A DNA stretch of 64,000 nt from positions 29,949-93,948 of the forward strand of contig WHVA01000450.1 of assembly GCA_015179125.1 (NCBI GenBank), written 5' to 3'. The notes below the pieces were generated by a model. That model searched no databases. It worked only from the letters and a program-made list of their open reading frames with translations, and had not been told where the DNA came from. Numbering within the stretch: the first letter of the stretch is position 1; each line of letters opens with the position of its first letter. The stretch comes from Gautieria morchelliformis. Lineage: Eukaryota; Basidiomycota; Agaricomycetes; Gomphales; Gomphaceae. Below are positions 12,671 to 64,000 of this stretch, piece after piece. Made by a program: the position numbers and the translations under genes.

Positions 12671-12674
12671 AACC

Positions 12675-36068: not shown

Positions 36069-37136
36069 ATGCAACCATCTGAGAGCTCCATTCCCAGTGA
36101 CAACTTGAACTTCACCTTGGACGAGCATGCGCCATGGGTAACCAATGGTTCGTCTCAACATGTCGCTCCTCGTCCTTGTGTTCCCTCACACCTCGTCTTG
36201 CTGCCGTCATAGATGTCAATCATTCTCATACAGCAAACGATACTCGTGAGTGTGTTCATTCATTCTCATCTAGTTATTCATCTTAGAGATGCACGCAGCA
36301 CCTTACCTCAGTCTTTCTCCCAGACATCGCCCCCTCTGGTTTCGCTGCGGGTCAGGACATTTTTAGTATTTGATTCTATCGCTGGCAGAGCGCGAGACCT
36401 GAATTACATCACCCTCACTGCATCTCCCAGCCTGGACAAAGGGGATGCCGCTGGCAAGTCTTGCATGTTTTATCCCGTCGCATTAATAGTCATCATTGAT
36501 ACGGCATACATCAGAGAGGCTCACGGAAATAGAAGATACGCCTGGTATGTCTTCCAGATGTACTGTGTAAAAAGTTCATCTTCTCATGGTGATTCTTCAC
36601 AAGCATCCAGCCAGCTTCGTCCGAGTATTCCCCCTGCCGTCACTCACGGACATCCCCAACACATCTACATGCCAGTTGGCACCATTGCGAAGACATCCGA
36701 ACTTAAAGGGGACATCACCACGACCGAAGTCGAGGGCCAGACACACCATCGTTGTAACAACCCGAGCTGTTCCCACCAACGTCACTTCGACACGAGGCGA
36801 GAGGCCATATCTCACATTCGCCGCGTCCATCTGAAGGAGCTGAAGCCCTTCATATGCATCACCTGGTACGTCTGTCTCAATCCCTAGGCCTTGCGAGTTT
36901 TCATCCTTATTGATCTTACAGTGGAAAATACTTTGCGCACAAACAGGATGCGAGCCGTCACGTCAATGCGAAAAACCGAGGCAAGATCTTCGAGTGTCCT
37001 ATCTGGTAAGCATACTGTTACTCTTCCCTTGTAGTTTGGGTATTCATGTTTTCTACCCACCAGCCATGAGCGGTATGCCCGTAAAGATTACTGTGATATG
37101 CATGCAAGGCGCTGCCTCACGAAACGCAAGCAGTGA
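36069..37136 (+). CDS. three-zinc-finger protein gene 1 (multi-exon)
   Basis: Exon 1 (36069-36147) encodes a short N-terminus starting MQPSES and ends in phase 1. The exon with finger 1 ends at 36865 and carries C-x4-C-x14-H-x4-H (CNNPSC to HIRRVH). Exon 4 (36922-37005, 84 nt) and exon 5 (37064-37136) add fingers 2 and 3: CITCGKYF...H and CPICHERY...HARRC (C-x2-C-x12-H-x3-C), ending in LTKRKQ. Both last introns (GTACGT...ACAG and GTAAGC...CCAG) split the second cysteine codon of their finger after TG, and splicing restores it. The exon 2/3 border is unclear: 36213-36887 is open throughout, so an intron near 36468-36555 may be retained. Probably a nuclear nucleic-acid-binding protein, inferred from the fingers only. 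The Helitron inserted 125 bases after its stop codon. Confidence 0.72.
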
Positions 37137-37260
37137 AATAAGCGATTTGATTATGTCTATGTCGTCGAAGTAGATCCACCAATGCGACGACGGTGGGGTT
37201 TTTAATGAAGTCCCGTAATTACGTCAGACTCTGGGAAAGCAGTGTCGATATATATATATA

Positions 37261-37291
37261 CTAGCCAATAGACCCGTGCTTCGCACCGGGT
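37261..37291 (-). other. Helitron 3' terminal hairpin and CTAG
   Basis: Stem ACCCGGTGC/GCACGGGT with one bulged G and a GAA loop, a seven-base spacer, then CTAG. The geometry is identical to the termini at 4356 and 31518, although the flanking subterminal sequence differs. Confidence 0.85.
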
Positions 37292-37388
37292 TATTTAGGG
37301 TTAACATTGCACATGGGTAGTTAATAGAACCAAAGAATTATTTGGTGAAATGCAACTACATACATTAAATACAAATGGAAATACAAAT

Positions 37389-40300
37389 TTAATCAGGCTT
37401 CAGCAACACTTCTTTGTATACAATATTAGAAGTTTTGTTCCCCTCCCCTAAAAGAATATGGACTCTGTTCCAATTAGTGCCTCTTGACACTGCAACATAC
37501 AACTGTCCATGTGAAAATACCACGTATCGCAAGTCTATGCCTACCGTGCCAAGAGACTGCCCTTGAGACTTGTTGATAGTCATGGCAAAGGCCAGCCTGA
37601 CAGGAAACTGGCGACGCTGGAGCTCAAATGGCAATTGGTCTGAGGTGGGTGTCACTGTAATCCTAGGGATAAATGCAGTCTCTCCTGCAAATGGTCCTGA
37701 AATGATCCTCACAAAGAGTACCCTGTTGGTCATATTGATGAGATGCAACCTTGTACCATTGCAGAGTCCACGACCAAGGTCAATATTCCGAAGAAGCATG
37801 AGTACCACTCCAGGTTTAAGCCTGAGTTGAGATACTCCACAGGATACACGTTGCCATCTTCATTTCCTTTGACTGAGTCTGCACTGGGATAGAGACGCTC
37901 CTCCCCAGGGAATACATTGAGCACCTCAGCATTAATCTCATCCATTTCCATATTGCGAGGGCAAAGGATGGCACGTTCCAAAAAGTATTTGTCTTGGAGT
38001 GCCTCCCCAGTACCAATGTTAGGATAGATAGCTGCAATGAGATCTGACACCTGTGGTCCACAGATCATGTGCTGAGGAAGTGTCAATGAATTGTCCAAAG
38101 GGAGATCCTTTCCCTGACCAACATCAGAGAGCCACTGAGCAAATTGTTCACTCTGGGGATCATGGGGGTCGACTCACATATTTTGAGTAAGATGGAGGAC
38201 CTTGACATGATGCCACAAAGGAGATCTTTGGATAGAAGCACCCACGATCTCCTCCTTGTTACCTCGAGGAACGACAGGCAGAGTTTGCTGGAAATCTCCA
38301 CCCCAAGCCACAGTAATACCACCAAATGGACGATCTGGACGCTCTAGGACATCCCTGCAGGTTCTGTCGACAGCTTCAACTACATGACGATGCTGCATAG
38401 GCACCTCATCCCATATGATCAAATGGACCTGCTTGAGAAGTTCTGCCAATGGTGAGCCTCTTTTGATGTCACATAGAGAACCCTCATGAATCAGAATTGG
38501 AATCTTGAGCATAGCATGTGATGTTCTGCCCCCAATTAGAAGCAATGCTGCAATTCCTGAAGATGCAATGCATAGGACAATAAGACCCCTTCCTCTGATA
38601 GAATGAGCCAGGGTGTTCCAGGTAAAAGTTTTGCCTGTACCACCAGGGCCATTGACAAAGAACAGAAGACCCTCTCCATTTATGGCCGAATGGAGGATCT
38701 CATCATGGACACGCCTCTGTTCCGCATTAAGCTTGTCAATATTGGTGGCGGATTTTTCCAGCTCTGTAGCTGGGTCATAGTCCCGCTGCTCAGCTATCCA
38801 ACGGTTCCCTACCAATCCCTCCCAGTGCCCCATTATCTGTGGCATATCTGGGAACTCATCCAGAGACTTCCCCCCCTGACGTATGATCTTGTCAATGAGA
38901 AAGAGACCAAAGTCATAGATTTGATCATTGGTAGGATGGTGAATGCCATGCCTATTTTGAAGCTGATACTCCAGGTCATCACAAATACGCTCCTGAAACT
39001 CCTCCCAGATTTGAGCAGGCCGAGCAGGGTTACACCGAAGGAGAATAGTGACAAATAACCTCCTGAGCTGGAAACCTGTTTGTATATGTGCAGCCTCCTG
39101 AAGACACTGTGTCCACTCTGAATCATCTTCTAACAGGCCCCTTGCCAGGCATGCAGCCTTGTAAGTAGGACAAAGGTCACCATCAAATGATCTAAGCTCC
39201 TCAAATGACGTTGCGCCTCTGACAACTGTCAGGAGGGTTCGCAAGAAAAAGCGCTCTCCAGAGGCTGGACTTGCAAAATGAAGGCGACCAAGACTGAAAC
39301 CCCGCTGGCGAGGCTGCCACCGCTTGGCTCGCTTTTTCCAAACATAGTGCTCAGGAAATTCCACATAGAGTAGTTCACGTGCCTCAGGATATCTGTCATT
39401 GGCTTCAAAATAGGCCATGAGCATGGTCTTAGCATCCTCTGCCCTCTGCAAAGCCATGCCTGGATCCATATGAGGATCAAATATCACATTGTGCTGGCCT
39501 GGCAAATGGACTGGAAGTGCCATGACAGGAGGGACCTGAACATGCATTTTATATTCCAGCAGTCTCCAAGCACCTTCATGTGAGCTGACATAGCGTGCAT
39601 CGAGGTACTGTTTAACCTCATCCCTCTCCTTATTAATGGTCATTGTGGTCCTGTCAGGCCCCTTGTACATATACTTGTGAATGTACTTGATAGAGCGCAC
39701 ATTGAAAGTGGGTTCCACATTAATATGGCATTCAAATTCCAAGAGGAGGGTGGGACAATAGGGAACCACGTCGCGGTTGTCCATGATGTTGCCTCTGACA
39801 TTATGCTGTCTGCCATCATTAGGACGGCGATACTGTGGATAGCCATCTTCAGTGACAGATGTCACCTCACGAAATTCCTTTGGGAAATGTTTAGAACACT
39901 TGCCCTCTGTCATGCAAGAAGCCCGAGGACGTGCTTGTCCACAGGGGCCATGAGTCATTAGATCACAAACTAATTTGTAGAGCCTTGGATGCTCTTGCTG
40001 ATCAGGAAAGACAGCCCAAACCAAAGCATCCACAGCTTCCGTGTCCTGATCTTATCCTCCTCTTTAAACCATATAAGAAGGTGCATATGAGGGAGCCCCC
40101 GCTTCTGGAATTCGATCACATGGACACGTGCAACTGTGCGACCAAGGATACCATCCTTCATGATACGTTTGATCAATTGCTCCTTCTTGAGATGAAAAAC
40201 CCTTGCAACCAAGTCAGGACGATCACTGGGAGTCTGGCCTGGCTTGAGAGCATCTTTTATTTCTTTCCACTGGGGTTTGCTGTCATTGTCACAAAGACAT

Positions 40301-42229
40301 CTGCTGGACCATGCTTCCTAGTGATTGCCATTGAATTTTGAAAATTCTCGTTCATATCCCTGGCGCTCCCAGTAAATGTAGCAGGCAAGATGACCTTTTG
40401 TCCCAAGTTAGCTGGATTGGCCTGATTGTCCTCAGGTCCAAACGTATCAATCATCTGATTGTAGACCTCAGCTCGCAGCTCATGTTGATGGTATTTGATC
40501 CAATTTAGCTTCTGCTGTTCAGTGACTGCCCAAGCATCCACAATGTATTGCTGAAAGAGCTTGCCAGCCAGGAAGAGAGTTTCAGCTTCACCCTCCCTTG
40601 GAAAAAGACGATAACGATAGTATTTTGACATGGTCACACGCCTGTCACTTGAAGGGTCCTCCTCCTCCTCCCCCTCCTGGCCTTGTCGTGGAAGAGCTTG
40701 GTCTATCTGTGGAATGTCCCAATCCCAGCCTGATTCACCTCTGGGAAAGAGAAGGACATAGTGTAGTGGCGCATACAAAGCATGTTCGGCCTGAATTCGT
40801 TGCAGTTCTCCACCTCTAAGCTGAATGACAATGTCTCTAGTGCCTCCAGGCACACCTTCTCCAGGGAGCACAATGGCAATCTCATCCGCTGTAGGAATAT
40901 TATATCTTCTCTGGTCTGTATGTGCTCTGTAGGTGAGTCTGGCCTCCACAGTCAACCTATCTGGCTGGTTCCTAAGCCTTTCCATCGCCTGCTGATAGAT
41001 TGGAACCAATGGATTGTGAGCCTGCATCATTTCCTGGAGGTCACTTAAAACATCTGAATCCAAAGGATCAAAACTGTTATTGGCCTCCCTACGTCGCAAA
41101 GCCTCTGCTGGATCATAAAAGTAGAGCTGCGCATAGCTGGGTGCCCTATCCTGACCCTGAGTAGGAAGAAGAGCGCCATGAATATGATAGAGGCCTCCCT
41201 GAATTTTGAAGACATATGGCCCAGGTCTATTCACGACCTTGTCATCTATATTCACTCCCACAGAGACGAATGCCAGTGCAGCATTATAGTTCCGAATCTT
41301 TTCCCTAAACTGTTTGCCACGCCTGTCTTGGCTGGCCAAAAGAGTCTTTAGTGGTTCTGGAGGTTCCATCAACAATTCAAGGTGTATCTGGCCCTTTGAA
41401 CAACATATACCAAATTTGGGCTCAGCAATGGTAGAGTCGGACAGACGCTCTGCCTTCCAATGCCATGCTTTACATTTTGGACATTTGTCATCCATAGCAC
41501 CAAGGTCATGAGGTGCAATCCGTTGTTCAATCAAAGGGCGACGTGCTAGCGGAAGGGTTCTTAAAGGCATTGGTGGAGGCGGTGGAAGTGGAGGGGCTGA
41601 GGAGGAGCAGGTGGATGCAGAGGCTGTGAAGGCACAGGGGGCCCTGGAGGCAGAGGAGGTACAGGTTGTTGTGGTGCAGGCTGCTGCTGGAGTGGCATTT
41701 GATCTGGGAGAGGTTCAGGGTGTCGTGCGCGCCGTCGTGCCTGTCTTTGTTGTGGCAGAGGTCTAGGATTGATATTAGCAGCCTGGGCCCGCAAGGCAGC
41801 TACCGCTGCAGAGCCTACAGGGACGGGAGGAGGAGGTGCTATCTGGGCATTAGCAGCCTGGACCTGCAAGGCAGCTACCGCCGCAGAGCCTACAGGGACA
41901 GGAGGAGGAGGTGCTATCTGGGCATTAGCAGCCTGGGCCCGCAGTGCCGCTACTGCTGCAGAGCCTACAGGAACAGGTGGCGGTGCTAACAGGGGATGTC
42001 TCTGACGCACAGGTGCCAGAGGCATATCTGCTAACCGTTCCTGTATGGCACGTACAGCATCCCGAGGACTTAGATCAGGTGGAATGGCATTTGAAGGTCC
42101 AGCCACAGGAGGCCAAGGAATTGCATTGTCCTGAGGGAGTAGAGGTCGAGGAAATGGCTGAGGAGGTGGAGGGTCAGGATTTCGAAGACGTTCTTGAGCT
42201 GCAGCGAGAACCCTATCCCGACGACGCAC
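37389..42229 (-). pseudogene. Helitron Rep/Pif1 helicase gene, frame-broken
   Basis: Segments in order: a Pro/Ala/Gln-rich N-terminus with three 25-residue repeats (42229-41561); a zinc-binding start CPKCKAWHW and the Helitron-like N-terminal domain (41570-40257); the HUH motif as GLPHMHLLIW (about 40100); the Rep tyrosine motif KYIHKYMYKG (about 39680); a Pif1 helicase with Walker A GPGGTGKT (about 38645) and Walker B LIIWDE (about 38410); and a helicase end with TINKSQGQSL and VAVSRG (37808-37389). At least five frame changes separate these parts: near 41570, 40260, 40050, 38170 and 37800. Rep would nick and join DNA ends for rolling-circle transposition, and the helicase would unwind the strand. 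Catalytic motifs are all recognisable, so decay is recent, or some breaks are unrecognised introns. Confidence 0.88.
41770..41995 (-). repeat. 75-bp in-frame tandem repeat in the Helitron gene, 3 copies
   Basis: Three 75-base units each encode PPPPVPVGSAAVAAL followed by RAQAANAQI-like residues. The unit stays a multiple of three, so copy changes alter a flexible N-terminal linker without shifting frame. Confidence 0.9.
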
Positions 42230-42300
42230 AGAAGGGACGTCATTGGCAACCGCCGCTGACGCTCCAGAGCACGCTCCTCCTGCCTATCACGCTCTGATGT

Positions 42301-44035: not shown

Positions 44036-44812
44036 TAAGCGGAGACCGGCTGGAGGCAGAAGCTCGCGAGCTCCAGAGGCGAGGGTGATGAGGAGATATG
44101 GAGATGAGAGCAGAACAGGCACATGTGCGCCAGACGCCGGGGCGTGGGAAGGCATTCATCATCCAGATGATCTCGCCATTAATATTAGAATATGCAACCG
44201 GTCAATGATGTGACACGCGCGCTATTTATAAACCGCGCAGAAGCACAGTCTGGGAGAGCGTTGTCACCGCAGTCGTTTCATCGGACCGTTGGAACAGTAG
44301 ATCTGGGTACGAAGCGTCGAAGAGTCTCCGGCATGCGAGCCAAGCGAAGTTTGACTTGATCTCGCCATTAGATCCCTTCCCACACCGCGCACACCGTGTG
44401 GGAAGGGATCTAGGGGCCACGCGCCGCCCCAGAGTCCGGCGCATTCAACTTCCATCACCTTGCCCACGGCGCACCGGCGCCAAGTGTGACAGGCGCCTAG
44501 AGACGCATTAACCCGACTAAGATGACTATTGCTGCTGCTGCAACGTTCTAGGATTTTGGTACACACTATCCTGGGGCCCCGCTTCATGTGAAGGAGTCGC
44601 CGCAAAATGGCTTAGAACGTTTGCACCTGTCCCGGATCCTCGCGGCCCCCTTCATCTTAACGACTTGGTTGCAACGAAATTTGCCTTCAAGTACCTGCCT
44701 CTTTCCTAGAATCATTCTAGCGCACTGTTGCCAGTATTGCCAGTATATACCCGGCCCACTTTCTCTCACGACTCGGTCACGTTGGAGGTTTCTTTACGCT
44801 TAGGACCCCATG
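44036..44812. other. between tandem array and zinc-finger gene 2
   Basis: No gene recognised. GATCTCGCCATTA occurs at about 44169 and again at about 44359, and TTTATAAATA at about 44221-44232 could serve a minus-strand (Helitron) transcript. The Helitron 5' end may lie here. Confidence 0.35.
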
Positions 44813-44850
44813 GAAGCGCGCTGGCTTTCCAAGTGGCCAGCAGATATAAA
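44813..44850 (+). promoter_or_regulatory. promoter of zinc-finger gene 2
   Basis: GGAAGCGCGCTGGCTTT followed by TATAAA (44845-44850), 75 bases before the start codon; the same 17-mer precedes the TATA box of gene 1. Confidence 0.65.
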
Positions 44851-44924
44851 ACACTCCTCAGACCACACACTACCGTCCCTTATCTCCCCACTTTGCTTTC
44901 TATTACACCACAATTGTTCAAAAC

Positions 44925-46198
44925 ATGTGCCCCTCCCAGAGCGTTATGGACAGCGACGGGCTGAACTCCGTGCTGGGAGAGCCTGTATATTCGTCTTACG
45001 GTGCACAACATGACCCCCCTCCCTCGTCTTTATATTCACTAATACCCATGTTCTTCCCGACACTCGCTTACCTTATATCTCATTCGATGAATGACACTTG
45101 TGAGCATGTTTGTTCATTCGCATCCAGTTATTTGTCTCGGATATACACACAGGAATTTCCATAGCAGCCATTCCCATGAGCCTCACCATTTCAGGTTCAA
45201 GTGCAAGCCAGGACGCTATAGGTGTGTGCCTTCCATTCCTGTGGAACGCGAGACTCGATGGTGCCTTTCATCACTACAGCCCCCAGCCTGGATAATTACG
45301 AGGCCGCACGTGAGTTATGCATCTGTATCCTGTATCACCACCATGAGCTTCCCTCGCAGCCTTTTCCACAAACCTCGCCATGTCTGGCTCCAGTGCAAGT
45401 CAGGGAGCCATGGGTGTGTACATCACTCCAGAACATGGGACTCGATTGTGACATCCCCTCATGGCAGCTTTCGGCCTGGACAATGGCAAGGCCGCAGGTG
45501 AACCATGCATTTCATATCCTGTATAATCATTGATATATATACTGAAGACATCCTAGATGTTGCTTTATCTAACAATTTTGGGCCACAAGCATCGGACAAG
45601 CCTCCCCATGATGCTTCCCTCACCATTCATCCGGGCGTGTTCCACACACCTACCGAACACAACCTCACGCAGCTCTACCCAATCGCTGTGGCAGCCGACC
45701 TCCAACAACATATCATCACGGTCCAAGCCAACGGTGTCAGAAAATACTGGTGCAACTTTATTCGGCCGGGTTCATCCCCATGTCACTTCATCGGCACCAG
45801 GAAGCAGGTCCAATCTCACATTCGCCGGGCCCACCTTCACGAGTTGACACCCTTCAAGTGCACCTGGTACGTCTATCACTAGGCATGAGCCTTGGGGACT
45901 TTCATTCCGATCAACTTCTCACAGCGGAAGGTACTTTGTGGGTATGCCTGAAGGGATTCGTCATGTGACTACGAAGAACCAAGGCAATATCTATGAGTGT
46001 GGTGTCTGGTAGGCACATTATCCCGTTCTGTTTAGTTTGCGTATTCAAAAATATCTTTTTTTCACAAGCCACAATCGTTATGCCCGGAAAGATTATCGGA
46101 ACAAACATGCGAAGAGCTGCCTCATGAAAAGCAAGGAAGAAGGAGTAAATGGATCTTGTTTTGCTCATGTCAACGTCGTGCAGTCTCCAAAGCGATAA
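44925..46198 (+). CDS. three-zinc-finger protein gene 2 (multi-exon)
   Basis: Exon 1 (44925-45000) encodes MCPSQSVMDSDGLNS and ends in phase 1. The finger-1 exon starts after GAAG at 45548 and ends at 45866; its finger reads C-x9-C-x11-H-x4-H (PCHFIGTRKQ, HIRRAH). Exon 4 (45925-46008, 84 nt) holds CGRYFVGMPEG and ends ECGV. Exon 5 (46069-46198) holds HNRYARKDYRNKH, AKSC and a longer tail than gene 1. Introns again split the second cysteine codon after TG, giving C-x-C in finger 2. The second-exon region is duplicated (45181-45345 and 45373-45531), and neither copy gives a clean frame from exon 1, so expression of a full protein is uncertain. Confidence 0.62.
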
Positions 46199-51443: not shown

Positions 51444-51479
51444 TTCTTAAACGTGAGTGAATATAAAGACGAAGGGGGG

Positions 51480-51857: not shown

Positions 51858-52974
51858 AATCTCATTGCAGCTGACTCCTTCGTATGAAGGAAGGGGCCAG
51901 GATACTGTATACCACCCTGTGCAGAAGCAGCAGTATTCCACATTAGTGGATGCGATGACAGAAGATCAACCGTGGACTACGAGGCGCCTGCGACCCCACC
52001 GGTACACGAAGAAGAGGGGAGCATTCACGGAGAACGCAGACACACGAAGAACGCAGACACATGGAGAACGCACAGCAGTGCACCGGTACATGGAGTAGTA
52101 GAGTAGTAGGTGACAGGTACATGTAGCCCACAGAAGCGACCAGACCTAGTACTGGCGCACCGTGGTGAGCCCAGCGTCTTTTGCAGGTCCAGCTTCATAG
52201 TCAGCGCGCTGTCAGACATGGCTTGAGGATACATGTGGCGGCGCTGCAGAATAGGCTGACACACATGGGTGACATCAACATATATAGTCACGTACATCGC
52301 CACCGAGTCACAAGTTATTTCCTTTTCCGACAGGCGAGATACCTTAAATGTGACAGCATTCCCACGCTCCGCCAAATTTGGTTGTTGAGCACCGTAGGCG
52401 CCGCTTTTCGCCCCTGCGGCACTCTCCTTTTGCACAGGTTTTGCTCTCCAGGCTCGCTTGCCACCCTCATACTAATCCGTTTCGTCGATCGCCTCTTTCC
52501 CGATGAGTTTTTGACTGCCATATGCTTTCGTCAGGTGCTTCGTCTCGCACATACGTCACCAACTCTTTTGTTACGGTGCCTCGCCAGGCACCGGGGACAC
52601 GGATTCTTCGTGAGAGCCCTCCTCGAGTCGCTTCTCGGGTCCAGCGATCGTCTATTGTCTCGGCTACCGTCGGGCACTCGGCAAGAGAAGACGCTGTCAT
52701 CAGGATCATACACTCTATTCCCGCCTTTTTGGACCACAGGACCATGTAACATTGCTTTTGTGCACGCCAACAAACACCTTTAGCATTGCAGCGAGTACAC
52801 GAACAGCGGTCAAGATACAAAGCCAAGAGCAGACAAAGATACGGTCAAGAAACGGTCAAGAAAAAGGCCAAAACAAGAAAGAGACTGAGACTAAGACAAA
52901 AACACTACATGACACTCCACTTTGCATCACAAAATATCAGAAGTGCGGATAAGATATATCGGCCATGGCCACCT
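51858..52974. other. no recognisable gene
   Basis: An open plus-strand frame (52181-52783) has no domain or codon pattern that I trust. Short ACACGAAGAACGCAGAC-like repeats occur near 52040. Confidence 0.4.
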
Positions 52975-53154
52975 CTACTGAACGATGCGTGACTCGTGCA
53001 CGAGTTGCGCGGAAGGTAGCGAGTAGGATGGATGGGAAGGGGTGGCGGTGGGAAACGATAAGGGCTGCTGCTCATCTCGTGACCCGCCAGCAACACCATT
53101 AATCGGAGATATAGGGCGGGCTGAGAACAGTCGCGTCACGAAGTCAGATTCCAT
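52975..53154 (-). pseudogene. 5' exon fragment of a paralogue of the SAP-like coiled-coil gene
   Basis: From ATG 53154 the minus strand reads MESDFVTRLFSARPISPIN and further residues parallel to residues 134-180 of the complete gene next door, then loses similarity at about 52975. It lacks the coiled coil and all downstream modules. It lies directly behind the complete gene and the tandem array. Confidence 0.8.
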
Positions 53155-53822
53155 CGTTGTCGGCTAGATGAGACCGACCATACCTTGGTCTGTGTAGGTG
53201 TGCTCGGGGTTTTGACCCAACAAAACATCGACGCGCCCTCGTCTACCATAAGAAAACCGTCAAGCGTATATTCCACTGTTGTCGTGTAGATGAGACGGAT
53301 AATACCTTGGTCTGTGTGGGGGTGCTCGGGTTTTGACCCGACCAAACATCTACCGATCCAACGCCCTCGTCTACCGATAAGAAAACCGTCAGTGTATATT
53401 CCACTGTTGTCGTGTAGATGAGACGGATAATACCTTGATCTGTGTGGGTGTGCTCAGTCAGGGCTTTGACCCGACCAAACATCTACCGATCCAACGCCCT
53501 CGTCTACCGATAAGAAAACAGTCAGAGTATATTCCACTGTTGTCGTGTAGATGAAACTGATAATACCTTGGACTTTGTGGGTGTGCTCAGTCAGGGCTTT
53601 GACCTGACAAAACATCTACCGATCCAACGCCCTCGTCTACCGATAAGAAAACCGTCAGCGTATATTCCACTGTTGTCGTGTAGATGAAACTGATAATACC
53701 TTGGACTTTGTGGGTGTGCGCGGGGCTTCGACCAGATCACACATCCGCGGAAAGAGCGCTTTTACCTACCGATAAGGAAACCGTTAGCTTATAGTCCACC
53801 GTTGTGGGATACATGAGACCCA
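53155..53822 (-). repeat. ~126-133-bp tandem array derived from intron 3/exon 4 of the SAP-like gene, about 5 copies
   Basis: Units recur near 53163, 53286, 53412, 53545 and 53678, with a diverged copy up to 53822. On the minus strand each holds TCTTATCGGTAG (acceptor), a 65-base exon-like segment coding DEGVGSVDVWSGQ, and GGTATTATC (donor-like). The complete gene carries one such unit at its intron 3 acceptor and start of exon 4 (56137). Confidence 0.85.
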
Positions 53823-56618
53823 TCATACAGGTGTTCCCCAGTCATATCGACCGCGATCCCGCCGGTGGGTTGGCGTTTTTGGACAAGGTAAAGCCACGCC
53901 TTGCGGGATGGTGGCTGGGTTCCCCACTGCCTCGGAGTTCGAGGGTTCTGACAGCTCCGGGATGTCCTGTGGGTTAGAAGGCGTGCTAGGGACCAGCGGC
54001 CAGGGGAGGGCAGAACTCGGCGTATAAGTAACGGGCAGCGGGCCACCGAAAATCCCGCGGTTGTCCATAGGATCCACCGAGTCAAAGGCGTTCTCCATGT
54101 TGGAGGAAGGTCCCGCAACTGCAGCTCTGGGTGGGGTGCATGGAGCACCCTCGACAGGAGCTACTGCTCCGGTACTGGACGGTTCAGCCCGCGGCATTGC
54201 CAAGTCGTCGTCTTCCAGGTCGAGGTACCCATCGGTATCAGCCGTTCCCGCAAATGGCGTGGGAGCTTGGCCGCCAGCCGTGAAAAGTCCCGGGGGCGAT
54301 TTGGACCGATGCCGTGGCGTAGATGTACACTCCGGACCGTCGGGACCAGGGCCAACAAAAGACGATGGCCCTGCATCCTTCTCAGGGCCATGAAGACGAG
54401 GACGTTTCCTCAACGGTTTAGTGACCCGATGCCCTTCGTTCTCTTGCTCGGCGCCATCTTCGTTGACGCTCACGTCAGGGGTATCCAGAAGACCGCGAGT
54501 CCGTTTGCCGAGTGTAGGCTGCGACGGCGAGGGATCAGGAAGCTCAACTTTGGCCCTGGCAAAATCACGCCAGTTAGTAATGCCCGCTGGGTGGTAGTGG
54601 AAACAACCCACGGAGCAGCCACACCAGACCCCACACCGGCTTCCATGTTAGCATCCACTTTGGAGTCCTTAAAAAAGTCACTGCCGCTGTCGTCGAACGG
54701 ACCAGGTGGAAGTGTGCTACAAGTGAAAGAGGAACTGGCGACACCAGGGCTAAGAAAAGAAAACGGCGCAGCGTCCTCTTCATGGCCGAGATCCGCAGCG
54801 TCCTCTTCTTGGTCGAGATCCGCAGCGTCCTCTTCTTGGTCGAGATCCGCAGCGTCCTCTTCATCGCGATCAAGCCGAGGCCGCTTCCTCAACGGTTTAG
54901 TGACCCGATGCCCTTCGCTCTCTTGCTCGGCGCCATCTTCCATGACGCTGATGTCGGGGGTCTCCACCAGACTGCGTCTGCGCTTACCCAGCGCAGGCTG
55001 CGACGGCGAGGGATAACGAAGCTCAACTTTGGCCCTGGCAAAATCACGCCAGTTAGTAATGCCCGCTGGGTGGTAGTGGAAACAACCCACGGAGCAGCCA
55101 CGCCAGACCCCACACCAGCTTCCATGTTAGCATCCACTTTGGAGTCCTTAAAAAAGTCACTGCCGCTGTCGTCGAACGGAAAAGGGGGAAGCTTGCTAAA
55201 ACTAAACGAGGAACCGGCGGCACCAGGGCTAAGAGAAGAAAACGGCGCAGCGTCCTCTTCATGGTCGAGATCCACAGCATCTTGTTCTTGGTTGAGATCC
55301 GCAGCGTCCTCTTTAGTGTCCCGATGGTAAGCTGCCAGCGGAGCCCCTTCGTTCTCTTGCTCGGTGCCATCTTGGTTGACGCTGATGTCGGGGGTCTCCA
55401 CCAGACTGCGTCTGCGCTTACCCAGCGCAGGCTGCGACGGCGAGGGATCAGGAAGCTCAACTTTGGCCCTGGCAAAATCACGCCAGTTAGTAATGCCCGC
55501 CGGGTGGTAGGGGAAACAGCTCACGGAGCAGCCACGCCAGACCCCACAGCGGCTGCTGTGTCTTCATTCGTTTTCGCGTCCTGTCTATGGTCACTCGTGC
55601 CGTTGTCTTCGGGAGGATCACTAATCACCCTGGACATGGAAGGGTCACGGGCTGCCTCGCGATTACGCAGCGTCGTCTCCAGTTCAGTGACACGATCCTT
55701 CAAAGTGCCATTCTCCGCCGCCAGCTGTTTCACTTGAAACTCCAGGCCAGCCACTTGAGCCTCTGCGAATAGGACAATATCCGCCGCGGATTTCGCACGT
55801 TCGGCTTGGAGACGCTTTACCTCGTCCTGAAGCCCAGGAATTTGGGCTATGGCGACCTCCATCTCGGATATGCGGGCAGCCAAGGTTGCCTCCTCGAGCT
55901 GAACGATGCGTGACTCAAGTGCACCGTAGGACGGATGAGAAGGGGTGGCGGTGGGAAGCGGGAAGGGTTGCACATCGCGAGACCCGCCAGCAACACCATT
56001 GATCGGGGATATAGGGCGGGCTGAGATGAGTCGCGTGACTAGGTCAGATGCCATCGTTGTCGGGTAGAGGAGATCAATGATATTTTTACCTTTGTTGGTG
56101 TGCGCGGGGAAAGGATCTACCGATCCAGCGGCCACGTCTACCGATAAGAAACGCGTCAGCTTATGTTGAGGTAGAACTTGCCGTCATCGTACCTTCTTCT
56201 GCCTGTATGGGCTCTTCTTGCAGCATGACAGTGACCTTAGTCTGCCGTCCAGCGCCACGTGTGATTACCTTCGTCGCGTGTCTGGCCCCACTACCACCCG
56301 CCAGGACCGGTCGACCTTTGCCAACCCGCGCAGACCCTGCACGAAGGGGGCGAGGAACCTGCTTTCCACTGGGACTAGGATGAGAGGATGTCTCGTTCAA
56401 CGATAACACGATGATAAGCTTACTTGACGAGGTCACACAATGCATTTATCATCTCCACGGTCCTCTTGTTTGCCTTAATATGGTTCTCCTAGAAGGTATG
56501 TCACGGTTTAGAACGATGACCATGTTGGCCAAGACAAATCGACGTCTACCTTACACAGTCTCTGGATGTGAGTCCGCGACAGTGATTCCAAGTTTTTGCG
56601 GTCAGGGATTTTACCCAT
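53823..56618 (-). CDS. SAP-like, coiled-coil protein with a triplicated exon module (7 exons, 820 residues)
   Basis: Exons: 56618-56550, 56488-56424, 56374-56193, 56137-55525, 55468-55091, 55034-54612, 54555-53823; every phase agrees and the total is 821 codons including the stop. Exons 1-2 encode a SAP-like helix pair (LESLSRTHIQRLCKE, TVEMINALCDLV). Exon 3 adds a basic GRPVLAGGSGAR block. Exon 4 holds a coiled coil at about residues 177-266. Exons 5, 6 and 7 each begin AKVEL and carry SPSQPALGKRRR- and TPD(I/V)SV-type blocks; exon 6 has three EEDAADLDQ repeats, and KPLRKRPRL is a likely nuclear signal. The three introns before exons 5-7 are all 56 nt and nearly identical, each with TACTAAC. 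SAP domains bind DNA, so a nuclear role is inferred; no catalytic domain is seen. Confidence 0.82.
54612..55525 (-). repeat. tandem exon-intron module duplications
   Basis: The segment intron (56 nt) plus AKVEL exon is present three times (introns at 55524, 55090 and 54611). Exons 5 (378 nt) and 6 (423 nt) are whole multiples of three, so duplication left the frame intact. Confidence 0.9.
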
Positions 56619-56896
56619 CGTAGTAGTGGCTGGTGGGCCGTTGATGGTAATAGATGGTTGGAGGTTTCGAGTAGCCATGCGTTTCGATGTGTGTCTTGAC
56701 ACGGTGGAGCGTTGTGATGGTGGTGGTTAAAGCTAAGAGTAGAAACAAACGCGACCGGTCACGTGACTTCTTATAACCTCCAAACAATTGTTGAAACTCC
56801 GCTGACATCGGTTACCGTAAGACGAAATGATTGGCCCCTCATACAATTTTTTTTCCCGCGCGTATTGTCTCTCTTTTTCTCAAATTTCATCGTACA

Positions 56897-57259
56897 ACTA
56901 GGTGGTGTTGTCGGGACAAGGAAACAGGTTCGAACTCACATTCGCCGGGCTCACCTTCAGGCGTTGAAACCCTTCAAGTGCACCTGGTACGTCTCTCACT
57001 AGCCGTGAGCATTGGGGGCTTCATTCTGATCAACTTCTCACAGCGGAAAGTACTTCTGTGGGTAGGCCCGAAGGCATTCGTCATGTGACGACGAAGAACC
57101 AAGGCAAGATCTATGAGTGTGGTGGCTGGTAGGCACATTTCCCGTTCCGTTTATGTAGTTCGCGTATTCAAAAAAAAAAATTTCACTAGTCACCATCTGT
57201 ATGCCCGGAAAGATTACCGGGACAAGCATGGAAGGAGCTGCCTCACGAAAAGCAAGTAG
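56897..57259 (+). pseudogene. three-zinc-finger gene 4, 5'-truncated copy
   Basis: The end of the finger-1 exon (to 56986: GTRKQVRTHIRRAH), exon 4 (57044-57128) and exon 5 (57190-57259: HHLYARKDYRDKH, GRSC) match gene 2. Exon 4 is 85 nt instead of 84, which shifts the frame, and everything upstream of about 56885 is missing. Splice sites are preserved. The similarity to gene 2 continues about 230 bases past the stop codon. Confidence 0.8.
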
Positions 57260-58286
57260 AAGGAGTAAATGCATGTCAACGTCGTGCAGTCTCCAATGTG
57301 ATATAACGTTTGTGTTTTGAATTTGATGTATTTGTTGTATTACGACCTATTTTACAAGTGATTCCGAAGAAAACCGTTGTCTGGGCTCTCTGGATGAGTG
57401 AGTATGTGACGCACACCAGTGCATGAGCGTAATTCCCTTGCTCGTCAACTAGCACTGAGAACAGAGAATCGTGGGAATATATATGTAAATGTTGAGCTCA
57501 CCACCTATCAACACTGTAGTTTATAGATGTGCATCACAGCGGCAGGTCATAGGTACCTCGACTCAGATCTTAAATCGTGCCTCAATGCTTCATGATCCCA
57601 GCACTTGCTGGCCCGACTGAGTCGTGACTTTCACTTTAACTTGGACCAATTTTTTTCACTGTTGCTCCACACTTGCTCAATGTGCTAGGACGGCTGTTTA
57701 GTTCAACTTTCGACCCTCAATGCGTGCAGCGCCCTCCCAGGCCTCCTTCCACATCAGAGTCGCGGATATTAAGAAGGCGAGACAGTGACGGCCAACCTCG
57801 AATTCGAAACCCCAATGACCACCTCACCATGCACATGACTATGTCTGATTCGTGAAATATTATATTAAACCTATGCATTTGGATTAGCCCTTGAGCTACA
57901 TACAGTGCCAAGATGGCCTTGGAAACAGAGTGGTCCCATGATTTGAGAAGTGGGCAGCCTTGCGTTCGTAGAGACCGGGTAGGTATTTGCCGTGAGTGCC
58001 ACAATGGCTGCCCAGCGGATGGGAGACAAAAAAATGAAAATTTCGAGACAAATATCCAGAAGCAGGGCTATAGAGCTTGACCAATTCACATCCTACACAG
58101 CATTCGCGACCAAAAGCCTAATAGCGAGAGGAGTCACTCGAAGCACACCCATTCAATCCAACAAAAGAACGCAAAACGCATCATATACCAGTTACCATGT
58201 CATTTGGCACTCGGTTGTAGATCTAGCATGTAGGCAACTGTCCACGCGAACACCATGAGTAAATCAGATGACGGGACTGCTAGGAT
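57260..58286. other. intergenic
   Basis: The first part duplicates the 3' flank of zinc-finger gene 2. From 57700 to 58286 the minus strand has protein-like pieces (LLKSWDHSVSKAILALY; LLMVFAWTVAYMLD) interrupted by stops; I cannot assign them. The young copia element inserted at 58287-58291. Confidence 0.4.
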
Positions 58287-58291
58287 AGTTA

Positions 58292-58608
58292 TGTTGGAGT
58301 CAGGGTCGGTAAGCGGAGAACGCAGGGCCAAGTAGGTTAGGGGGAAGGATTTATCATCGTATAGTAAAATAGTATTACTGGCCTCGGTCAAGTATGACCG
58401 AGGCCCTATATCTACTCGCTCCACAATCGCTAACCCCTCAGTGAACTGGCCGTTCACTGAGGTACGTGCCCCCATCCGATTATGTATCCTAATGGTATAC
58501 TTACTGTCATGTAGGCTTCATACTATTAGGTAGAGTACTTATATACACTTAGTGAACTGGCCGTTCACTGAGGCTTCATACTATTAGATACTGCGCATAA
58601 CCGCTACA
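58292..58608 (+). repeat. 5' LTR of the copia element at 58292-63185
   Basis: TGTTGGAGTC... to ...CCGCTACA, with hairpins GGCCTCGGTC/GACCGAGGCC and CCTCAGTGAAC/GTTCACTGAGG, and a TTCATACTATTA direct repeat. Confidence 0.98.
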
Positions 58609-58612
58609 GGTT

Positions 58613-61600
58613 ATGGGCCCCGCAGAGCCCACAACGTCTACCCCCACCTCCAAGTCGTTCGTCGTCCCGAAGCTGGCCAGGGACAGCACGAACTGGGTCA
58701 CCTGGAAAAGCCAGACGTTAGCTACGCTGGCGGCGACCCGTGGTGCCAAGCGCCACCTAGAAGGGACTGCTCGGATCCCTCGCACGCTCCCGACGTACCC
58801 TAACGGCTACACGCTCACAGACAAGGAGGAAGAGGACCTAGAGGATCTCGAGAAACGCTGGGATGACTACAATCAGCGCGAGGCAGCGATAATGGCACAA
58901 ATATTTACCACTGTCCCCGATAGCGTCCTCATCGAAGTCCGCAACCTAGCGACAGCAAAGGAGGTCTGGGAGGCCGTATGTGCAAAGCACGAGACAAGGG
59001 CACTCACGGTCAAGGTTGACATGCGACGACGCATGTACGAGCTGAAATGCGAGGACGAATCGAACGTCCGCACGCACCTGGAATCCCTCATGAGAATGCA
59101 GGAGCAACTCGCAGGGATGAACGCGGGACTCACCGATGACGACCTTGTCACCGTCATCCTCGGCTCGCTCCTGAAGTCGTATCGGCCGCTCATCAATGCG
59201 ATAACGATGTCGGCGACTCACGCAAAGGCAAGACTTGAACCGGACCAGGTAGTCAGCACTCTAATCGACGAGTTTGAGCGATTAGCAATCGAAGAACGAC
59301 AATTGAAGGCAAGTGAGAACGCACTCGCGGTGGTCAAGAGTCGTGGAAAGCACCAGCCACGCAGCAGTGGTTCCAATACCACGCGGACAGATGTGGAATG
59401 TTGGAAGTGCGGCAAAAAGGGGCACCTCAAAGCAGACTGTCGTTCTAAAGGCAAGAAAAAAGAAAAAAAGGATGAGGACAAGAAAGGAGGCGACTCGGCG
59501 AACGCAGCAGTAGAAGGCGAGGATTTCGCTTTTACCGCGACGCTCGCTGGGACCGCGCTTGCGCGGGGAACGAGTCGGTCAACGGGGCGAGAAGTCGACG
59601 TGTACGACTCGGGCGCATCAGGCCACATGTCGCCGAGTAGGCATCGCTTCACCACTTTCCGTGAGATCGCGCCGCGGACGGTCACTGCCGCGGACAAGAC
59701 AGTCTTCAAGGCTACCGGGATAGGTAGCATGAAGATCGGAATACCTAACGGTAGAACGACAACGTACGTTACCTTGAAGGACGTACTGTACTGTCCCGAT
59801 CTCGCGTTTACACTCATCTCCCTAACGCGATGCGACGCGGCTGGCTACACGGTTCTACTCAAGAATCAGAAATGTTTAATTCGAGACAAGAAAGGAACGT
59901 TACTTGGTCAAATCCCGCTCTCGAATGGCCTGTATAAAGTAGAACATCAGTCTACTGCAGCAGCAGCGAGTACTACACGAAAAGTACTCACATTGGACGA
60001 GTTACACCGCCGGATGGGACACATATCGCCCCAGGCCGCTCGCAAGCTCATCCGAGACCGAATCGTCACTGGACTAGATCTCGACATGGCGAGTCAGCCA
60101 GGCTTTTGCATGGAGTGTGCACAAGCCAAACCTACCCGAAAATCCGTGCCACAGAAACGGGAGGGGCCGCGAGCCACCAAATTCGGCGAAAAAGTGCACT
60201 CGGACGTCTGGGGGCCTGCAAACCCCCAGAGCTACGACGGAAAGGACTATTTCGTCAGTTTCACCGACGACTATAACCGGTGGACTTACCTGGTACCAAT
60301 GGCTAGGAAAAGCGACGCGTTCAACTGCTATAAGCAGTACGAGGCGTGGGTCGAGACGCAATATAACGCAAAAATAAAACGCTTACAGACTGACCGCGGG
60401 GGAGAATACCTCTCCGACGCCTTCACGGCCCACCTAAAGTCAAAGGGGACGACCCGGAGCCTCACGGTGCACGATACCCCTGAAGAAAACGGCGTGTCAG
60501 AACGTTTGAACAGGACGCTGCTAGAACACGCACGTGCAATGCTCCTGGCAGCTGGATTACCGAAGTTTTTGTGGACTGAAGCGGTACAGCACGCGGTCTG
60601 GCTGAAAAACCGGACTTCAACGCGTGCACTCAACGGCAGGACGCCGTATGAGATTGTGCACGGCGTGAAGCCGGATCTCACGGACCTACCAGAATGGGGA
60701 ACTAGAGTCTATGTTCTAAAAGAAAGCAGCAGTAAGCTAGACTCGAAGGCGGATGAAGGAAAATGGGTGGGGTATAGCGATGAGAGCAAAGGGCACAGGG
60801 TCTACTGGCCCGGGAAACGCCGCGTCACAGTCGAAAGGAACGTCACGTTTGACGCCTTTGTCCATGTGACCCCCAACGACGGTCTGACTGAGGGGGAGTC
60901 GTCCGCTCCAGACACTCAGGACGTTGTCGGCGGCGTTCCCGCTCCTCGCACACCCCACCAGCACCAGCCACTACAACCCCCGGACCCGGAAGCAGGCCCC
61001 GCAGACACCGGGCGAATCGACCCCCTCGAGGAATTCGAGGCCGCGGATCTCCCGGCAGACCCGCCCCAAGGAAGGGGCCACCGCACGCGGAAACCGTCCG
61101 CGTACGTGCGGGGGATCGCGGACGGCGTGGGCAGCAGCACAGGTCGTCCACATGCACCCGCGTACCCCCGAGGTCTGCCGATGCCCACAAACGACTCAGC
61201 CCTAGTCGCGCTGACAGGGGGCGGAAGGGAGATCGCCAGAGCTGAGGGGGAGCCTCGTCACCCTGCTAGGCACACGACCGCTGCCACAGCGCACAGCCCA
61301 GGGCCCGACCCGACTAACCTCGATGACGCCTGTTCCCGCGCTGACTGGCCGCAGTGGGATGCGTCGATCAGGCGGGAGTTGGACCAACACGCGGCGCTGC
61401 GCACCTGGGACCTCGTCGAAGCCCCGGATGGCGCGAACATCGTGGGGAGCAGGCTCGTGTTTCATTACAAGCATGACGCGGAGGGAAAGGTTGTAGATCG
61501 AAAAACGAGGCTCGTCACGCAAGGATTCTCACAGACACATGGAATTGACTACAATGAGACCTTCTCCCCCACAGCAAAGCTCTCTGCTATCCGAATAATC

Positions 61601-62863
61601 GCAGCCATTGCAGTCCGGAACGACTGGGAACTCGAACAAACGGATATAGATGGCGCGTACTTGAACGCACCAATCACGGAGACCATATACATGCGACAGG
61701 CCAGGGGATATGAAGCCCCTGGAAATGAGCACAAGGTCTGCCGGCTCAACCGTGCGATATACGGGCTGAAGCAATCCGGTAGGGAATGGTACGACACGCT
61801 GCGCAGGTTCATGAACCAATTTGGGTTCACGCGCTGCGAGACGGAACACGCAGTCTTTCACAGGTATGCCGGACAGGACGCGCTTATCGTTGCGGTCGAC
61901 GTAGACGACCTGACCATGGCCGGAAGCTCGAAGAGCGCGATCCTTGAATTCAAGAATGAGCTACGTACGGTCCTCAAAATCAAGGACTTGGGCGACCTGC
62001 ATTGGCTATTGGGTATAGAGGTGAAACGGGTGCGCGAGACGCGCACAATATCGTTCTCACAACGCGCTTACATCGAGAGAATTCTCGAAAGATTTGGTCT
62101 GCAAGATGCGAATGCCCTGAGCACGCCGCTCGACCCGCATCACAGGCTATCCCTATCCCAATCGCCCACCACTCCTTGCGAACGCCAAGAAATGCACGCC
62201 GTACCGTACAGGGAAGCTATCGGCTCACTCATGTACGCGGCTCTGGGCACACGCCCTGACATTGCGTTCGCGGTGTCCTTCTTAGCTCAGTTCATGCAAG
62301 ACCCCGGGAGGCCGCATTGGGAGGCGGTCAAACGCGTGTTTCGATACTTGAAGGGCACGAAGGACGTGGCCCTAACTATCGGCGGATCTCACAGGGGACT
62401 GGAAGCATTTTCTGACGCTGACTGGGCATCACAAGAACACCGACACTCGATTTCGGGGTACGTATTCACGATCGACGGAGGCGCTGTGTCTTGGAGTTCC
62501 AAGAAGCAGCCGATCGTCGCGTTGTCAACAACGGAGGCGGAATACGTTGCAGCGACTCATGCCGCGAAGGAGGCTTTGTGGATACGCGCCTTCCTGGCAG
62601 AGATCGCCCGACCACTCAGCCAGCCCATCACCATCCACCTCGACAATCTCTCCGCGATATCTATCACAAAGAACGACGAGTATCACCCGAGGACCAAGCA
62701 TATCGATATACGGTATCATTTCATACGCCACGCGGTACAAAGACAGCTACTGTACATCGACTACGTACCGACAGATGATATGGCAGCCGACATATTCACT
62801 AAAGCCCTCCCCCGACACAAGGTTTTACACCTGACCGCCCTACTTGGTCTACGTTCGGCTTAA
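58613..62863 (+). CDS. copia gag-pol polyprotein, 1416 residues
   Basis: Uninterrupted frame starting at an ATG inside the primer-binding site. Approximate residue positions: UBN2-type gag 1-230, CCHC knuckle 262-275, protease near 330, GAG-pre-integrase near 460-510, integrase core 525-690, proline-rich linker to about 910, reverse transcriptase about 925-1170, RNase H from about 1265. It aligns along its whole length with the element at 8117-12979, the linker being the most variable part. It ends seven bases before the 3' LTR. Confidence 0.96.
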   Translation: MGPAEPTTSTPTSKSFVVPKLARDSTNWVTWKSQTLATLAATRGAKRHLEGTARIPRTLPTYPNGYTLTDKEEEDLEDLEKRWDDYNQREAAIMAQIFTTVPDSVLIEVRNLATAKEVWEAVCAKHETRALTVKVDMRRRMYELKCEDESNVRTHLESLMRMQEQLAGMNAGLTDDDLVTVILGSLLKSYRPLINAITMSATHAKARLEPDQVVSTLIDEFERLAIEERQLKASENALAVVKSRGKHQPRSSGSNTTRTDVECWKCGKKGHLKADCRSKGKKKEKKDEDKKGGDSANAAVEGEDFAFTATLAGTALARGTSRSTGREVDVYDSGASGHMSPSRHRFTTFREIAPRTVTAADKTVFKATGIGSMKIGIPNGRTTTYVTLKDVLYCPDLAFTLISLTRCDAAGYTVLLKNQKCLIRDKKGTLLGQIPLSNGLYKVEHQSTAAAASTTRKVLTLDELHRRMGHISPQAARKLIRDRIVTGLDLDMASQPGFCMECAQAKPTRKSVPQKREGPRATKFGEKVHSDVWGPANPQSYDGKDYFVSFTDDYNRWTYLVPMARKSDAFNCYKQYEAWVETQYNAKIKRLQTDRGGEYLSDAFTAHLKSKGTTRSLTVHDTPEENGVSERLNRTLLEHARAMLLAAGLPKFLWTEAVQHAVWLKNRTSTRALNGRTPYEIVHGVKPDLTDLPEWGTRVYVLKESSSKLDSKADEGKWVGYSDESKGHRVYWPGKRRVTVERNVTFDAFVHVTPNDGLTEGESSAPDTQDVVGGVPAPRTPHQHQPLQPPDPEAGPADTGRIDPLEEFEAADLPADPPQGRGHRTRKPSAYVRGIADGVGSSTGRPHAPAYPRGLPMPTNDSALVALTGGGREIARAEGEPRHPARHTTAATAHSPGPDPTNLDDACSRADWPQWDASIRRELDQHAALRTWDLVEAPDGANIVGSRLVFHYKHDAEGKVVDRKTRLVTQGFSQTHGIDYNETFSPTAKLSAIRIIAAIAVRNDWELEQTDIDGAYLNAPITETIYMRQARGYEAPGNEHKVCRLNRAIYGLKQSGREWYDTLRRFMNQFGFTRCETEHAVFHRYAGQDALIVAVDVDDLTMAGSSKSAILEFKNELRTVLKIKDLGDLHWLLGIEVKRVRETRTISFSQRAYIERILERFGLQDANALSTPLDPHHRLSLSQSPTTPCERQEMHAVPYREAIGSLMYAALGTRPDIAFAVSFLAQFMQDPGRPHWEAVKRVFRYLKGTKDVALTIGGSHRGLEAFSDADWASQEHRHSISGYVFTIDGGAVSWSSKKQPIVALSTTEAEYVAATHAAKEALWIRAFLAEIARPLSQPITIHLDNLSAISITKNDEYHPRTKHIDIRYHFIRHAVQRQLLYIDYVPTDDMAADIFTKALPRHKVLHLTALLGLRSA

Positions 62864-62869
62864 GGGGAG

Positions 62870-63185
62870 TGTTGGAGTCAGGGTCGGTAAGCGGAGAACG
62901 CAGGGCCAAGTAGGTTAGGGGAAGGATTTATCATCGTATAGTAAAATAGTATTACTGGCCTCGGTCAAGTATGACCGAGGCCCTATATCTACTCGCTCCA
63001 CAATCGCTAACCCCTCAGTGAACTGGCCGTTCACTGAGGTACGTGCCCCCATCCGATTATGTATCCTAATGGTATACTTACTGTCATGTAGGCTTCATAC
63101 TATTAGGTAGAGTACTTATATACACTTAGTGAACTGGCCGTTCACTGAGGCTTCATACTATTAGATACTGCGCATAACCGCTACA
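62870..63185 (+). repeat. 3' LTR of the copia element at 58292-63185
   Basis: 316 bp, identical to the 5' LTR except for one G fewer in a G run. Confidence 0.98.
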
Positions 63186-63190
63186 AGTTA

Positions 63191-63774
63191 GACATATGAA
63201 AAGTGAAAGCTAAGGCGGCTTACGATATCTCCTTTAAAAGCTTTTTTCTTTTTGGGGTGACTTTAATCGACGTATGGCTTTTAACGCCCTTGATACGATG
63301 GTATGCATTTAGATTCTTATGCAGCGTAATATGGAAGGCCGCAGATCCGCCCCTTGGCTGGGTAGGTTGATGACGTCAAGAATGGCAGAGGAAAGAGAGT
63401 GGAGAATGGATTATTTACCGTTCCACAATAGCTGTCACGACTCAGCAGGGTCTATCGAGCTGCAAAATCGCTCAACGAGCCTGTGGAAATAATTTATATA
63501 GCCATGGTTGGGAGGCCTAGGCGCCACTGTGCTTCGATTTCCTGGCCCTCCTCGCGCAAGAAATCCTTACCTTAACCGAATCACCCGGGGCACCAGTGTT
63601 TCCTGACCGCCGGTGTTATTGTAGCACGCACCGAGGAAACGGCTTTGGGTGCTCCAAGCTAGCCATAACATGGCCATCTTCCCGTATTTATTTGTCAGGT
63701 AGTCTGCGAATGTATCCTACAGCTCAATCCTCCGTCTCTCTACCTCCCAGTTGTCTATTACAAGAACACATAGT
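63191..63774. other. upstream region of zinc-finger gene 5
   Basis: No gene. A TTTATATA box at 63492-63499 is rather far from the start codon. GGAAACGGCTTTGG near 63636 faintly resembles the motif found before genes 1 and 2. Confidence 0.35.
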
Positions 63775-64000
63775 ATGCAACCTTCCCAGAGCTTTGTGGA
63801 CAACGACTGGGTGAACTCTGCAGCTCTGCATGAGTTTGGATATGGTCTACCCATTGGTATGCATTGCCATGCCCACCATGTCATTCCTCGACCTTATATT
63901 CATTTACTTACCATTTACCTCCCGACACTGATTTTACACATTCGGAAATCCACATCCTCGTGAGCATGCTGTTCATTCATGTCTTGTTGCTTATCTCGAA
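63775..64000 (+). CDS. three-zinc-finger protein gene 5, first exon (cut by window end)
   Basis: Exon 1 (63775-63844) encodes MQPSQSFVDNDWVNSAALH and ends in phase 1 at a GTCTAC donor. The intron that follows (CACTGATTTTACAC, then GTGAGCATG(C/T)TGTTCATTC) matches intron 1 of gene 2 (45050-45125). The finger exons lie beyond the window. Assignment rests on the shared N-terminal pattern M-x-PSQS and the shared intron sequence. Confidence 0.7.

Follow-up and report, generated by a model that had tools for sequence, protein, structure and literature searches.

Sequence evidence for an expanded, clustered family of three-zinc-finger genes in Gautieria morchelliformis

Introduction

A 64,000-nucleotide stretch of the Gautieria morchelliformis genome (G000:C505:29949-93948, hereafter the window) carries several related genes, each with a short first exon and exons for three zinc fingers, lying among transposons. 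The locus raises the question of what these genes are: how large the family is, whether selection maintains it, how its copies spread and what their proteins may do. A first-pass annotation, made from the letters of the window, counted five loci and proposed recent duplication and divergence of DNA- or RNA-binding proteins. Searching the whole assembly (122 Mb, 1113 contigs), we find a family that, judged from its sequences, is genuine, selected and clustered. Its likeliest role, which we hold to be moderately probable, is as a set of short DNA-binding regulators of the C2H2 type that have spread by duplication. Below, C and L numbers denote contigs and fetched loci, respectively, and genes of the window are lettered A to D.

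Results

Family size and clustering

Three genome searches with finger-1 exons gave 117 places on 41 contigs, counted after merging matches less than 1 kb apart on one strand. The first-pass annotation was right to see an expanded family of genes sharing a conserved exon plan, but five loci was a gross undercount. The 117 places include fragments, weak matches (expectation value, E, up to about 0.8) and repeats on near-identical contigs, so distinct loci are fewer. The fetched loci held 67 finger triplets, with some genes counted repeatedly where loci overlap; nine lacked a full splice-site set at first pass, five more failed later, and the 53 retained collapse to 33 distinct proteins, numbers that argue against a chance pattern. 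With L010, L011 and L057 left out (frame-shifted or short finger 1), 30 proteins entered the selection, ligand and tree analyses.

The places are strongly clustered. Gaps between neighbors are below 10 kb in 53 of 76 cases, against a mean of 1.15 and a maximum of 5 in 1000 trials of random placement, and 36 of the 53 close pairs share a strand. Across five stretches of C404, 50 kb in all, the long frames seen again in other stretches compared were the family itself, Copia pieces, frames belonging to a near-identical stretch and a few uncharacterized ones beside genes. The telomere-like repeat TTAGGG x4, looked at for a subtelomeric location, has just two overlapping matches in the assembly, and a search for relatives in viral contigs returned four pattern matches, none confirmed. 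The first-exon pattern was rejected as a gene counter for being too loose (388 and 403 matches versus 87 and 95 for the reversed pattern).

Near-identical repeats are evident, with the same B gene on C505, C765 and C1038 and the same pair on C404 and C989. More broadly, C404, C505, C765, C1038, C989, C847, C828 and others share genes whose DNA is near-identical or whose proteins are identical, at differing spacing or with differing insertions. More than one haplotype is probably represented in the assembly.

Selection and duplication history

Comparing the copies by the ratio of nonsynonymous to synonymous change (dN/dS), a check suggested by the first-pass annotation, gave about 0.2 in the fingers of subfamily A, to which gene A belongs: 0.19 for finger 1 (95% bootstrap 0.08-0.47) and 0.22 for fingers 2 and 3 together (0.08-0.64). 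Constraint is weaker in the N-terminal exons (0.52, 0.31-0.90) and in the pre-finger part of exon 6 (0.63, 0.33-1.32); these part-by-part values come from 10 of 11 copies, L027 being dropped for its incomplete model. Subfamily B gave 0.41. Pairwise medians are 0.25 (A) and 0.44 (B), and the ratio exceeds 1 in one of 53 pairs within A and in none of the 35 within B. As read from these substitutions, the fingers are under purifying selection.

These figures also bear on the idea that the family consists mostly of pseudogenes in decay, maintained by duplication and including few functional members. Consistent with decay, a stop falls within the matched stretch at 28 of the 117 places, several copies are truncated, and splice acceptors have been lost in the A gene of the window, in L030 and in L031. 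However, dN/dS lies well below 1 in both young subfamilies, and 30 distinct finger regions retain a complete finger 1, which makes general decay a very unlikely explanation.

Mean synonymous distance (dS) between recent copies is 0.14 in A and 0.24 in B; within A it spans 0.12-0.17, near the intron distance of 0.10. Between subfamilies, dS reaches about 1 or higher, or is saturated (the single A-B pair computed gave 0.98), with lower values inside the pairs C171 (0.42), C278 (0.37) and C209 (0.16). Duplication has therefore been both old and recent: the repeated duplication with young copies that was first proposed did occur, but it is not recent alone. Full support unites A and B as sister groups, and on C404 their members are interleaved.

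Diversification of binding specificity finds no support within subfamilies. Mean entropy at contact positions versus elsewhere is 0.11 versus 0.15 in A and 0.13 versus 0.45 in B, that is, lower at the contacts; between subfamilies the two are about equal (0.94 versus 0.89). This is pertinent to the possibility that the genes are a fungal counterpart of the animal zinc finger arrays that silence transposons. Tandem clusters in transposon-rich DNA and many young copies would fit such a role, but the contact residues are not diversifying within subfamilies, each protein has three fingers only, and full-length A and B models (one each, Pfam E up to 0.01) contain no effector domain, KRAB- or ZAD-like domains included. 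We consider silencing arrays of this kind improbable.

Exon plan of the genes in the window

All four gene starts recognized earlier (36069, 44925, 48314 and 63775) are present, as is the truncated copy, which we call E. The finger exons of A, B and C are complete, in order and in frame, with short introns bearing consensus splice sites. The shared plan of finger-1, 84-nucleotide (nt) finger-2 and finger-3 exons therefore stands for these three genes, as does the C2HC nature of their finger 3; overlooked were micro-exons before finger 1. The features are as follows.

35948-35965, plus strand: promoter element TGGAAGCGCGCTGGCTTT of gene A, 121 bp before the ATG
36069-36147, plus strand: gene A exon 1, 79 nt, phase-1 end, MQPSESS...
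36213-36245, plus strand: gene A micro-exon 2, 33 nt, phase 1-1, from alignment of A copies
36312-36365, plus strand: gene A micro-exon 3, 54 nt, from alignment of A copies
36424-36453, plus strand: gene A micro-exon 4, 30 nt, acceptor AG changed to AT, donor GC
36515-36544, plus strand: gene A micro-exon 5, 30 nt, from alignment of A copies
36604-36865, plus strand: gene A exon 6, finger 1, 262 nt, C-x4-C-x14-H-x4-H
36922-37005, plus strand: gene A exon 7, finger 2, 84 nt, lacking the fourth ligand
37064-37136, plus strand: gene A exon 8, finger 3 (C2HC) and stop
44811-44828, plus strand: promoter element of gene B, 114 bp before the ATG
44925-45000, plus strand: gene B exon 1, 76 nt, end placed by eye
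45168-45221, plus strand: gene B 54-nt micro-exon, copy 1
45280-45309, plus strand: gene B 30-nt micro-exon, copy 1
45360-45413, plus strand: gene B 54-nt micro-exon, copy 2
45468-45497, plus strand: gene B 30-nt micro-exon, copy 2, placed by eye, outside the output of the exon filter
45557-45866, plus strand: gene B finger-1 exon, spacing C-x9-C, exon start placed by eye
45925-46008, plus strand: gene B finger-2 exon, 84 nt, C-x1-C, lacking the fourth ligand
46069-46198, plus strand: gene B finger-3 exon and stop, longer tail
48314-48392, plus strand: gene C exon 1, 79 nt, MPPSQN..., end placed by eye
48791-49124, plus strand: gene C finger-1 exon, putative exon start
49177-49260, plus strand: gene C finger-2 exon, 84 nt, C-x1-C
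49317-49392, plus strand: gene C finger-3 exon and stop
51454-51914, minus strand: probable 5' fragment of a broken B-like gene, inverted relative to E, with gene start and promoter element (51642-51658, one mismatch)
56911-57259, plus strand: E, probable 3' fragment of a broken B-like gene, with the end of finger 1 and the finger-2 and finger-3 exons
63775-63856, plus strand: gene D exon 1, 82 nt, end placed by eye; remainder on C404 (L072 7252-8289)

Subfamily A genes have eight exons of 79, 33, 54, 30, 30, 262, 84 and about 73 nt (ten copies aligned, eleven modeled; exon 6 of one of the eleven, L027, was not recovered by the modeling script). Exon 1 and the finger-1 exon are separated by four symmetric phase-1 micro-exons (33, 54, 30 and 30 nt); since the first five introns are all phase 1, loss or duplication of any one of these would leave the reading frame intact. 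In gene A of the window, the 30-nt exon 4 has lost its splice acceptor and is probably skipped in frame; L030 and L031 each lack an acceptor at one other exon. The 54-nt exon is present in two copies in B and in three in L043. Gene B repeats the 54- and 30-nt pair (the 30-nt repeat by eye) and, also by eye, seems to lack exons 2 and 5. Modeled proteins have 214-216 residues in ten A copies and 255 in B; the start codon is uncertain in L032, L034, L074 and L075. Finger-1 spacing and the tail vary among copies, as noted at first pass, with C-x4-C in A versus C-x9-C and a longer tail in B.

Gene D shows exon 1 alone because the right edge of the window is the contig end. Its remaining exons, with three fingers, are carried by L072 (C404:375001-385000), which matches the window at 99.1% identity over 52719-58291 and at 100% over 63186-64000. 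Fragment E and the inverted piece at 51454-51914 very likely derive from one broken B-like gene, as its 3' and 5' halves, respectively, since the two pieces adjoin within one gene in relatives such as L055, L056 and L063. Internally repeated, uncharacterized frames occupy 53023-56167, between the two halves, and are common to C404.

Zinc fingers and their relation to known models

The fingers of the 30 aligned proteins depart from the classical pattern C-x2-4-C-x12-H-x3-5-H, which does not hold across them. Finger 1 reads C-x4-C-x14-H-x4-H in 19 proteins, with x13 in one and x12 in another (D), and is spaced differently in the nine B proteins. Finger 2 lacks the fourth ligand in all 30, with Asn (28) or Thr (2) in its place, and in 13 a single residue separates its cysteines, so that the number of fingers that fold may be below three. 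Finger 3 is C-x2-C-x12-H-x3-C throughout. Helix residues of such fingers are read as DNA contacts by the rule for Zif268-type fingers, and three of them are invariant in all 30 proteins: Arg(-1) and Asp(+2) of finger 3 and Arg(+6) of finger 2. A TGEKP-like linker, HLKEKPF, occurs in several subfamilies.

Family members are mostly, though not wholly, invisible to standard finger models. The proteins of A, B and C missed every Pfam cut-off, and three of ten scored proteins passed any: D for zf-C2H2_jaz (30.3 versus a curated 22.6 bits), L034 for zf-C2H2_6 (25.1 versus 25) and L077 narrowly for both PF00096 (25.8 versus 25.2 bits), which no other protein of the ten passed, and zf-met (21.3 versus 21.2 bits). 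For zf-C2H2_jaz, L033 reached 16.9 bits, below the cut-off, and the other eight had no match at E up to 0.01. A genome search with PF00096 listed 28 fingers with E no higher than 0.001, a threshold stricter than in the family searches, and none fell at a family place (150 of 189 candidates scored). An ordinary PF00096 finger and a divergent family place stand some 3 kb apart (C337:175136 and C337:178328), a pair that may show a link between the family and ordinary C2H2 genes.

The main rival to DNA binding is RNA binding of the JAZ or zf-met type, for example in RNA processing or silencing. In its favor are the cut-offs passed by D and L077, the non-canonical finger 2, and matches to zf-C2H2_jaz in 6 and to zf-met in 7 of 14 chosen members at E up to 1. 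But the ordinary models zf-C2H2_6, zf-C2H2_4, zf-C2H2 and zf-H2C2_2 match 5 to 12 of the same 14 members, and the DNA-type contact pair is kept in finger 3. In addition, fingers 2-3 of gene C match solved C2H2 proteins (Aart, 2i13, E 6.1e-12; ZBTB7A, 3e-08), and the solved structures matched by this gene are chiefly named DNA binders. We regard an RNA-binding function as unlikely.

A promoter element shared by subfamilies A and B

The 18-bp element TGGAAGCGCGCTGGCTTT was found, at up to two mismatches, in 17 of 17 A and B promoters examined, always 112-126 bp before the ATG. Between A and B it is 93% identical, whereas the aligned flanks reach 63% and shuffled flanks 61%. Conservation at a fixed distance, with flanks that barely exceed shuffled ones, indicates that the element is very likely under selection in A and B. 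The genome contains 17 exact and 26 one-mismatch copies, all 43 on family contigs; 32 lie within 1.6 kb upstream of a same-strand family finger-1 exon and 11 have no such exon nearby. There are 23 two-mismatch copies, 14 of them on other contigs, and the reversed element pattern had no genome match. In a set of 17 promoters that also took in genes of other subfamilies, a CTGGC/GCCAG half-site is present in 14 and has no fixed place outside A and B.

We speculate, with little confidence, that the element at -120 is bound by the family's own proteins, such that the A and B clusters would form a self-regulating circuit growing with its own control sites. In such a scheme, finger 2, with its Asn, would be a non-canonical spacer finger setting the distance between fingers 1 and 3, and the micro-exon cassettes, with one to three copies of the 54-nt exon, would adjust the N-terminal part. 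Chance alone would not be expected to place an 18-mer at up to one mismatch on other contigs, and its absence there is therefore no proof of a closed circuit.

Transposons around the copies and mode of spread

The copies do lie among transposons, as the first-pass annotation stated, with a Copia element (58292-63185) between E and D and a Helitron beside A. This setting invites the view that a transposable element moves the genes around, whether as passengers or as components of its own, and two further observations are in keeping with it: many copies are broken, and in six A-like copies the match to gene A stops at nearly the same upstream point, near 35738-35743. This recurrent limit arises because gene A of the window lacks some 30 bases common to the others, which continue past it in groups and without shared ends. 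In the flank alignment, made for subfamily A alone, homology of the eleven copies fades at differing points on both sides; the pieces of one transposon with common termini, which were raised at first pass as an alternative, are not what the A copies look like.

Over 58287-63190, the Copia has 99.4% identical repeats and an AGTTA target duplication, and the same site on C404 (L072) is empty, with a single AGTTA copy. The Copia was therefore inserted beside pre-existing genes, and the insertion differs between near-identical contigs. The Helitron (37261-42229, minus strand; Helitron_like_N and PIF1 domains) begins downstream of gene A, its terminal hairpin and CTAG end lying, by eye, at about 37261-37264, within a run of TATATA still present in most other A copies. 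An origin of the family from this Helitron was rejected, as the element lies outside the gene. Carriage by a transposable element is thus largely refuted, and we view it as highly improbable; the flanks indicate spread by duplication of neighboring DNA and not by one transposon with fixed ends.

Elsewhere in the window, a second Copia (8117-12979) has an intact 1413-residue frame and 305-bp repeats 99.3% identical, and is 74% identical to the Copia at 58.5-63.2 kb. Two frames at 24469-26044 (minus strand) with other C2H2/C2HC-like stretches (CPEGC...H....C and CVLC...H....H) have no Pfam match at E up to 0.01 and look like a different zinc finger gene. An Rfam scan of the window gave no match.

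Discussion

Several lines of evidence favor DNA-binding regulators: conserved triplets and splice sites, dN/dS, the matches to C2H2 structures, invariant finger residues, clustering and the promoter element. The predicted proteins combine a weakly constrained N-terminal part, built of symmetric micro-exons, with three C-terminal fingers. We envisage that, once in the nucleus, they contact DNA chiefly by way of fingers 1 and 3, together with the helix Arg of finger 2, and that the N-terminal part would then activate or repress targets. A and B members are probably switched on together via the 18-bp element that lies some 120 bp ahead of the start codon.

A number of findings weigh against this interpretation. 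No effector domain was seen in the A and B models, finger 2 is without its fourth ligand in every aligned protein and has closely spaced cysteines in 13 of the 30, and D and L077 exceed the cut-offs of zf-C2H2_jaz and zf-met, respectively. The contact assignment follows a general rule and not a computation on these proteins. The promoter element is absent from eight tested genes of other subfamilies (7 to 9 mismatches). To these may be added the stops at 28 of the 117 places and the decayed exon 4 of gene A.

Since most members fall below standard finger models, the family is easily missed or undercounted in surveys of fungal regulators, despite more than 100 places. The shared promoter element, interleaved clusters and young copies together offer a compact system for studying the multiplication of a regulator family and the effects of copy number on gene control, and the conserved ligand loss in finger 2 raises the question of whether such a finger still folds. 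Among the open-access PubMed Central papers listed by our searches, no title or abstract opening described such a family.

Relative to known systems, the family is closest in form to classical C2H2 proteins (PF00096; zf-H2C2_2, PF13465), with which it shares the finger fold, a TGEKP-like linker, the helix positions and DNA-type contacts in finger 3. It differs in the x14 spacing of most copies of finger 1, in Asn or Thr as the last ligand of finger 2 and in the C2HC finger 3. Animal KRAB- and ZAD-zinc-finger clusters provide a second comparison; in the portions of the literature considered here, amplification of those clusters is linked with transposons (PMC10547256, PMC12575710, PMC7655104). 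Like them, the present clusters were formed by duplication in transposon-rich DNA (53 of 76 gaps below 10 kb), but the proteins have three fingers only, the A and B models contain no effector domain, and contact residues are not diversifying within subfamilies. Finally, a survey of basidiomycete C2H2 genes built on PF00096 gives, in the parts drawn on here, 1032 genes in 30 species, the highest number in Schizophyllum commune (whose group numbers sum to 74), and reports tandem and dispersed duplication with purifying selection (PMC12295980). Set beside those figures, the one family described here alone accounts for 117 places in one assembly, fragments and near-identical contigs included.

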